Assembly (NCBI RefSeq): GCF_036373705.1
Contig: NC_089858.1
Span: 12,747,501-12,811,500, forward strand
Length of the DNA: 64,000 nucleotides
Direction of reading: 5' to 3'
Origin: Amia ocellicauda
Lineage: Eukaryota > Chordata > Actinopteri > Amiiformes > Amiidae
Positions 41,961-47,298 of this stretch are shown here, in pieces. The notes under the pieces are model-generated. The model saw nothing but the letters and a program-made list of their open reading frames with translations. It was not told the DNA's origin and did not search any database. Both the position numbers and the translations under genes were made by a program. Position 1 is the stretch's first letter, and every line of letters starts with the position of its first letter.

Positions 41961-44900
41961 ATGCCTCCCAAATTTGACCCCAACGAAATTAAAGTTGGTA
42001 CGTGAGAAATATATGGTAACTATGAGTCCTCGTCGTGCGAGTCTGCCTTGAATAAAGAACGAAACGCAGGCATTTTGGTAGATTCACAACAAACTGAGGG
42101 GTTTGTGTTTTTTACTTCAGGGCTAATATTCACTTAAACTTTATTTCCTGGTGTTTTTGTTATTCATAATTAGCCGGCGGCGTTGACCATGCCTGACTCG
42201 GGCCTAGACTTCATCAAGCGGTTTAGCGTATCGGGCGTTTTATTTAACCTTAACTGTCGGTGTAAAGCAGGGGAGGTTGTGCGATGGAAAACGGCTGGAT
42301 CTATACAGCGATATTATGTGGTCTGTTTTATTTCACAGGGTTTTGTTGTCATTTATTTGCTGGTTCCACTGAATATCAGTCGAGTGAACACGTGGTTGAG
42401 CATGCAATCCACACTTCACTACCGTGGGGTTTTGTGGCATCATTACATAAGTGACATTATTAAATTGTATGTTTTTATTTGGTCACGTTTATACAATATT
42501 GTTTTATACACTTGCCTAGAACCGATCTATATACAGGCTGCGATCACAAGCCTGCAAACGGGAGTCTGCGGCTGACGTCACGGTCTGTAGACATGGCGTG
42601 GACTGTTCTGGTAGAGCAACTGCAGAGTGGACTAAAGATGGATACAACGTTGAGAAATTTTAATGCTTTTTCGGAAACTGCAAAACCATTGTAGTTTATT
42701 GCAAGATTGAATGTATCAATAGTCATCACTTTACAGTGTGGGGGGGGTAATACAAAGTTTTCACTTTCCTAGTTTTAAATGATGGGATCTAGGATGATAT
42801 TCATAGGAAACAATAAGTCGAATGTGATATTTATACCGCCAGACAAGGTGGCAGGAGCAGGTGGGGTGTCGTGCAGTTGTCCACACCTTTGTCAGCTTTT
42901 CTGCTGTGAAGACGGATCTGCAGCACCCCTTGACACGTTGCTTTGCTGCGCACAATTGAAATGTACAGAATAAAAGTATTGGCGCAAGATGCACACTATG
43001 CAAAATAATAATCCATGAAGTGCAGTTCACTTGGATTTCTTCCAGCCTTATTGTATTAAATCGAACACTTCAAGCAAACTGTTCTTTGAATTAAATGTAT
43101 AAATCCAAATTTTAATGCTTCCATTTCAAAGACCATGCATAACTATACTCAGCTGTGTAGTCCAGTTGGTATACTATAACTTCACCAGCTGAGTTGCAGT
43201 ATTAAAGATGTACAAGCACCCTTCATGTTGAGAACAAAGTACTTCAATGGTGGGATTTGGTTTTGTTACTGTAACATTAATATTCAGTGAGTTTAATATA
43301 CAAGAATGTACATATTCTACTGAATGACCTGCACAAATTACAAAAATATCGTTTTGGAGGTTGACCGATTCAGTGATTAGATGCAACTTTACTGTATCTG
43401 TTCCCAAATTGAGAATAAAATTAGAACTGTAACCACAGATTAGCTATTTTACCTTAGAGTGTGGGGCTGTGTGTCCAGCAGTAATGACTTAATGCCTTCT
43501 GGCTGAATTCACTCTGGGCACTCCAGCAACTTGCAACTCAAATACAATAAAACCCTTAAATTTCCTCTGTAGGAGGATGTGCTTAATCCTGATCAATAAT
43601 GTCTGGTTTCACATACCTTGATTGGTTAGCACTAGTCTTGGACCACTCAACATAAAATAAGTAGTTTAAGATGAGTGCTGATCTGCGTCTGTGAAACTAG
43701 CCCTGAGTCTTGTGCATTTTTGCATGACCAGGTGTTCTGAGCATTATTCCGGCCTGGTCCATAACTTTGATTTAAGATCCCTGCCTAGATGGAAAAGCGT
43801 GAGAAAGCAAACTGATGCCTGAACCCCTGCAGACTGTTCTGGTCATGCTCTGTTAAAAAGTGGGGTAGTCTGGTTTTTTTAATGTCATGGTATTGCTGTC
43901 ACTGGTTTGAGTTATCTATATACAAGACCAAAAAAGGCTTGTATATCAGTCAGTGCTGATTCAATTTATTTAATCTTTAACTTATTTATTTTTTTGTTAA
44001 GAACCTTTGCATTTGCAAGTGATTATTTGTGATATTTGATGGTATAGTTTCAAGGACTTGCATGCTTCAATCCCTGTGTAAAATGCAAATCTGAGCCCTT
44101 TAATTTCAATGGGGAAGGGGGGGGGGGGGTTCAGATGTATGAAAAGTGAGGGAGTTCCTGGAGCCCCCCGCCACTATGCCTGTCCGTGTCCGTGACTGGC
44201 TTAATCCAGTGGGGGCTCAGAGAGACCCAGCTCTAGGAAGCAGCGTGGCCCTGACCAGTGGGCGGCTCTGTGCCAAATGGCCTGGAACACAATCACTGTG
44301 AGGTTACAGCGGTGTTGTGGCTGTCGTGCTTTTTCTGTGTTGAGGTGTGTGTTGCTCAGTGTTGTCCCTTCCCACAGTGTTCCTGAGGTGCACAGGAGGA
44401 GAAGTTGGTGCCACCTCTGCTCTGGCCCCCAAGATCGGACCCCTGGGTCTGGTGAGTACCACTTAAACTACCAGTCTAGAGCCCAGTTGGGATTCTAGGT
44501 TCATTTCAGTACCAATCTTATGTTCTCCTGTCTTCTCATATCATAGTTCTTTGCCAGTCTGTCTTGTGCTTTTCTCTTGGCCTCTGTGCCAGATTCACAG
44601 CGTCTCCCAGGCCTGGTGGTATAGATTGAGCACTGTAGAAACAGCAGCTGTCTTTCAGGCATGATGCCGCCAGCCTGAGTGGGAGAGCCCCCCGCCACTA
44701 TGCCTGTCTGTGTCAGTGACTGGCTTAATCCAGTGGGGGCTCAGAAAGACCCAGCTCTAGGAAGCAGGCTAGCCCTGACCTGTGGGCAGCTCTGTGCCAA
44801 ATGGCCTGGAACACACATTGAGATGCACGCATGCACACTCTCATGCACCAGTAAGAACTGGTCCGTTACATTCCCTTATAGTCCTGTTGGCACTTCACCC

Positions 44901-47298: not shown

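Follow-up and report, generated by a model that had tools for sequence, protein, structure and literature searches.

The introns of the ribosomal protein gene RPL12 in the window (the whole stretch of DNA that was analysed, 64 kb) very probably hold five copies of the H/ACA guide RNA SNORA65 (U65) that were duplicated within the gene (in cis), each of which would be obtained from a different spliced RPL12 intron. The coding part of RPL12 spans 41961-47298 (+) and consists of seven coding exons (Table 1), the joined frame of which is open over 165 codons and yields a protein of 165 aa, with residues 1-164 matching a uL11/RPL12 chain (E 2.1e-99). Introns 1-6 measure 2380, 637, 99, 837, 535 and 352 bases, respectively, and all five 131-base copies are intronic, with one each in introns 1, 2, 4, 5 and 6; the block of 131 bases of copy 1 ends 86 nt upstream of the intron 1 acceptor. 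Intron 3 is the sole RPL12 intron without a copy, and its 99 bases fall short of the length of the RNA itself. This distribution, including the empty 99-base intron 3, had been proposed in a sequence-only reading and is borne out by the exon-intron frame.

Table 1. Exons of RPL12, the intron without a snoRNA and the five SNORA65 copies. Positions are those of the window; the ungapped 131-base blocks start at the first position given for each copy.
Feature	Position	Strand	Basis and remarks
RPL12 exon 1, coding part	41961..41997	+	joined frame, 165 aa
SNORA65 copy 1, intron 1	44161..44292	+	RF00302 82.1 bits, 44167-44292; ACA box 44287-44289
RPL12 exon 2	44378..44451	+	joined frame
SNORA65 copy 2, intron 2	44685..44816	+	RF00302 82.3 bits, 44691-44816; variant 3' hairpin stem
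RPL12 exon 3	45089..45187	+	joined frame
RPL12 intron 3 (99 nt), without a snoRNA	45188..45286	+	joined frame; model search
RPL12 exon 4	45287..45368	+	joined frame
SNORA65 copy 3, intron 4	45574..45705	+	RF00302 81.5 bits, 45580-45705; one base off copy 1
RPL12 exon 5	46206..46292	+	joined frame
SNORA65 copy 4, intron 5	46573..46704	+	RF00302 88.2 bits, 46579-46704; variant 3' hairpin stem
RPL12 exon 6	46828..46940	+	joined frame
SNORA65 copy 5, intron 6	47049..47180	+	RF00302 84.7 bits, 47055-47180; between the two groups
RPL12 exon 7, coding part and stop	47293..47298	+	joined frame; protein match

With 81.5-88.2 bits all five copies score above the Rfam curated gathering score for SNORA65 (RF00302), which is 70 bits, with E <= 3e-13 for each copy within the 64-kb window, and a chance origin of the five matches is excluded. 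The earlier claim of five SNORA65-type snoRNAs was to be judged by such a covariance model, and it holds: a rejection of most copies did not occur and all five pass. SNORA65 was also the sole family above its own cut-off in the Rfam scan of the window; the 5' hairpins of all five copies gave matches to mir-4599, which at 26-30 bits versus a cut-off of 100 were set aside as hits to a GC-rich hairpin. When the search was extended to the organism's own genome (an assembly of 988,188,214 bases in 385 contigs), DNA similarity returned five matches over the whole genome, all in RPL12 and on one strand, and the SNORA65 covariance model, which scored 45 of its 40172 first-look candidates, at least five, the same five. 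On the + strand of RPL12, a model made from the five copies, which gives the copies themselves 169-174 bits, found nothing that could be a decayed sixth one: the next match reached 8.7 bits, and an unfiltered search gave no + strand match at E <= 10 in intron 3. Five matches on the minus strand of RPL12 (11.1-23.1 bits) overlap the copies themselves and were not counted as further copies.

As regards the surroundings of RPL12, Pfam domains mark neighbouring genes for an N-terminal proline methyltransferase (PF05891) at 3669-4679 (+), for a protein with ankyrin repeats and a SOCS box at 6056-7606 (-), for one with an FAD-binding domain at 12102-12674 (-), for a RING finger protein at 29834-30313 (-), about 12 kb upstream of RPL12, and for one with IGFBP and CCN-type TSP1 domains at 62394-63965 (+). 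The RING finger gene is presumably LRSAM1, going by gene order. Reading frames at 33953-35097 (+) resemble the reverse transcriptase of a LINE-type element in having a YADD motif; a Pfam search of 33953-34330 gave no match. At 62966-63148, sub-threshold hits to miRNA and other Rfam families are clustered on both strands, for which a low-complexity stretch rich in CT/GA is the probable cause.

The five copies are 74-78% identical to the Rfam SNORA65 consensus and 93-99% identical to each other, with pairwise differences at 1-9 of 131 positions. Copies 1 and 3 are separated by a single difference at column 25 of the alignment, as had been noticed before, and copies 1 and 4 by the most (nine). 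Altogether ten of the 131 columns are variable (25, 31, 40, 62, 84, 85, 86, 87, 97 and 104). The two types of 3' hairpin and the mixed pattern of copy 5, both of which the sequence-only reading had described, are seen in the column comparison: at columns 84, 85, 87 and 104 copies 1, 3 and 5 differ from copies 2 and 4, and copy 5 groups there with copies 1 and 3, but at columns 31 and 97 with copies 2 and 4.

In the structure as drawn, GAGCCCCC/GGGGGCUC forms the closing stem of the 5' hairpin and starts six bases ahead of the Rfam match, and all 28 pairs are standard in each of the five copies, with one change from G-C to G-U; covariation support was not found, as 0 of the 28 drawn pairs change on both sides among the five copies. 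An ACA stands at columns 127-129 in every copy, three bases from the putative mature 3' end. At the place of the H box the hinge reads AGAGAG in four copies and AGAAAG in copy 2, in each case with the last base deviating from ANANNA, and the Rfam consensus (AUAGUG) is off at the same base. Whole-RNA minimum-energy folds display both H/ACA hairpins in four of the five copies, the exception being copy 4, which departs in both; with its hairpins folded apart, only the 5' one departs. This departure from the H/ACA form, together with the one changed base in the H box of copy 2, could be taken to mean that duplication left some copies as non-functional remnants, and one or several of them could be silent. 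Still, we regard remnants as unlikely: guides, lower stems and ACA box are intact and invariant in all five copies, the upper hairpins contain nine of the ten variable columns, the 23 guide columns none of them (P 0.13) and the 59 core columns just one (P 0.02, or about 0.10 if linked changes are counted once), the core having been defined after the variable sites had been seen. The sparing of guides and core is consistent with selection on the RNA, and is not proof of it.

Both guide pockets are identical in the five copies. In large-subunit rRNA, the site matched by the 5' pocket (CCGCCAC with CCAGU) is GAUAACUGGC[U]UGUGGCGG, and that matched by the 3' pocket (UAGGAA with GCC) is GUCGGC[U]CUUCCUA. 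The pockets were mapped, as the sequence-only reading had proposed for 28S rRNA, on three eukaryotic large-subunit rRNAs (L006, L007 and L008) which stem from contaminants in bacterial assemblies and are not the 28S of this genome; their contigs are filed as Tissierellia, Flavobacteriales and Peptostreptococcaceae, and L006 and L007 were confirmed as LSU rRNA by Rfam. With pocket edges fixed, a choice made with the target sites already known, the expected uridine ranks first for the 5' pocket among 580 scored uridines in L006 and 964 in L007, and first again for the 3' pocket among the same 580 and 964. Exchanging the pockets lowers the ranks to 19, 164, 41 and 285. The mapping stood less well with free edges, where the 5' site shares first place with the uridine next to it and the six best sites listed do not include the 3' site. 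At columns 112-117 (e.g., 44272-44277) the right guide of the 3' pocket reads GCCAAA in all five copies versus GCCGAA in the Rfam consensus; the A of the copies faces a C of the rRNA where the consensus has G, so that this guide loses one pair and pairs less well.

The sequence-only reading had also suggested a second target for the variant 3' hairpin, and the joint change of columns 84, 85, 87 and 104 in copies 2 and 4 would suit two hairpin types with different targets. However, the change sits in the upper stem and loop, both types retain the same pocket when folded alone, and a second target is unsupported because none of the ten variable columns falls into a guide segment; different targets are extremely improbable.

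A distance of 54 bases separates the two target uridines in L006 and in L008; in L007 it is 616, owing to an inserted stretch that we take for an intron. In the available text of a study on chicken snoRNAs, 28S-3858 and 3912, likewise 54 apart, are both assigned to U65 in intron 4 of RPL12, and snR34 is named as the yeast counterpart at chicken 3912 (PMC2653536). For yeast, the accessible part of a further study describes position 2826, at the peptidyl-transferase centre, as guided by snR34, and 2880 as one of the sites lost when snR34, snR52 and snR67 were deleted together (PMC11121408); the spacing of 2826 and 2880 is again 54, like that of the uridines in L006 and L008. From spacing and pairing we infer that the 5' site corresponds to yeast 2826 and chicken 3858, and the 3' site to yeast 2880 and chicken 3912. 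In humans, according to the text available, 28S-4417 is a SNORA65 target and depletion of SNORA65 impairs the growth of lung-cancer cells (PMC7862062).

As to how the copies arose, columns 31 and 97 split copies 1 and 3 from 2, 4 and 5, and columns 84, 85, 87 and 104 split copies 2 and 4 from 1, 3 and 5. These splits are nested, so that one tree, ((1,3),5,(2,4)), fits the variable sites, and none of the 45 pairs of variable columns was positive in the four-combination test (10 variable sites, five copies, no outgroup); copy 5 is thus simply intermediate. Likeness extends into the flanks, where 6 of 20 pairs reached a single-test P <= 0.02 in a shuffle test. Downstream, copies 2, 4 and 5 have TTGAGATGCA(C/T)G in common (2/4, 2/5 and 4/5; P 0.000-0.004) and copies 1 and 3 are alike (P 0.006); upstream, copies 2 and 5, aligned with an offset, agree in 16 of 20 bases (P 0.01), and copies 3 and 5 are alike across the groups of the tree (P 0.008). 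When the copies were masked and whole introns were compared, five short matches appeared, at E 0.15-0.33.

A spread of the copies by retroposition of the processed RNA (snoRT) could be considered, as the likeness is nearly confined to the RNA itself. It appears very unlikely, however: just downstream of the copies no A-run of more than three bases was found at any of the five, flanking direct repeats did not exceed chance at any of them (longest shared stretch 4-6 bases, P 0.14-0.77), all matches found lie in one gene and on one strand, and copies 2, 4 and 5 are alike beyond the 3' end of the RNA. Nested splits, likeness of the flanks and the lack of flanking duplications and A-tails fit successive DNA duplication within RPL12, with flanks decaying faster than the RNA. 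The local duplication from intron to intron assumed in the sequence-only reading is hence supported by the matches found, which lie in RPL12 alone, and by the shared flanks of copies 2, 4 and 5.

A separate matter is what keeps the copies alike, where gene conversion from one intron to another is a rival to selection following successive duplication. Conversion may have contributed, though this is doubtful. In its favour, the copies are highly identical while their flanks barely align, a contrast that short tracts would equally produce, all five stand at a similar distance from the Rfam consensus, and the upstream likeness of copies 3 and 5 crosses the tree groups. Against it, the alternation of copy 5 at columns 31, 84-87, 97 and 104 would take several tiny tracts where one tree suffices, and because no pair of sites shows the four combinations, conversion is not needed for the mixture seen in copy 5 and was rejected as its cause. 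Of the two processes named in the sequence-only reading, selection is compatible with the invariant guides, lower stems and ACA box, and conversion fell away as the explanation for copy 5. The copies may be kept alike by purifying selection alone or also by whole-copy conversion.

On the preferred reading of successive duplication, the predicted mechanism is an ordinary one, that of a dual-guide H/ACA RNA directing two pseudouridines near the peptidyl-transferase centre. The excised RPL12 introns would be trimmed and each would deliver an identical snoRNP containing dyskerin, NOP10, NHP2 and GAR1, which would turn both target uridines near that centre into pseudouridine, and the five copies would together yield more SNORA65 from each RPL12 transcript. 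Successive local duplication of DNA would have made the copies, and selection for the RNA would have kept the snoRNA bodies alike as the flanks decayed. It would be a bold and rather improbable step further to regard the set as a dosage amplifier, by which SNORA65 output in this lineage would have risen to up to five guide RNAs per RPL12 transcript and the two pseudouridines of the centre would be tied to the activity of a ribosomal-protein gene, with the two upper-stem types perhaps differing in production or assembly by tissue or stage.

Previous work has described the family, its host gene, its targets and this way of duplicating, and no new mechanism is revealed. Chicken SNORA65/U65 (GGgACA46) agrees with the present RNA in family, host gene and the 54-nt spacing of its targets, whereas the chicken table, in the text available, lists one U65 isoform in intron 4 instead of five in introns 1, 2, 4, 5 and 6 (PMC2653536). 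Yeast snR34 is similar with regard to both sites, guiding the first and being among the three RNAs deleted when the second was lost, as far as the accessible part reports (PMC11121408). Repetition of an H/ACA RNA across the introns of a ribosomal-protein gene is likewise found for U17 in rpS8 of Xenopus laevis, which differs in the snoRNA (one for 18S processing), the host and the occupation of six of six introns, and U17 in rpS7 of Fugu, given as a title in the reference list of the same source, again concerns another snoRNA and another gene (PMC7601244, available text). No report of multiple SNORA65 copies in RPL12 of fish occurs among the literature matches listed, from a search with subscription papers mostly outside its reach. 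Intragenic duplication is one of the two main sources of snoRNA paralogues in vertebrates and dominant in chicken, where about 90% of H/ACA snoRNAs are called singletons, and the cis-duplicated paralogues of chicken and platypus lie in introns of the same host and keep guides and structures with other bases varying (PMC2653536, available text). The present copies, in different introns of one host and with conserved guides, are of this type, and differ in that a single gene holds five H/ACA copies, all with the same guides. While local multiplication of intronic snoRNAs is thus a known kind of event, the five-copy set in RPL12 is an apparently new and unusually complete instance of it: a natural series with one guide RNA in every RPL12 intron large enough, which is suited to the study of intronic snoRNA multiplication and to the questions of whether the dosage of a guide for the peptidyl-transferase centre is under selection and whether its copies evolve in concert.
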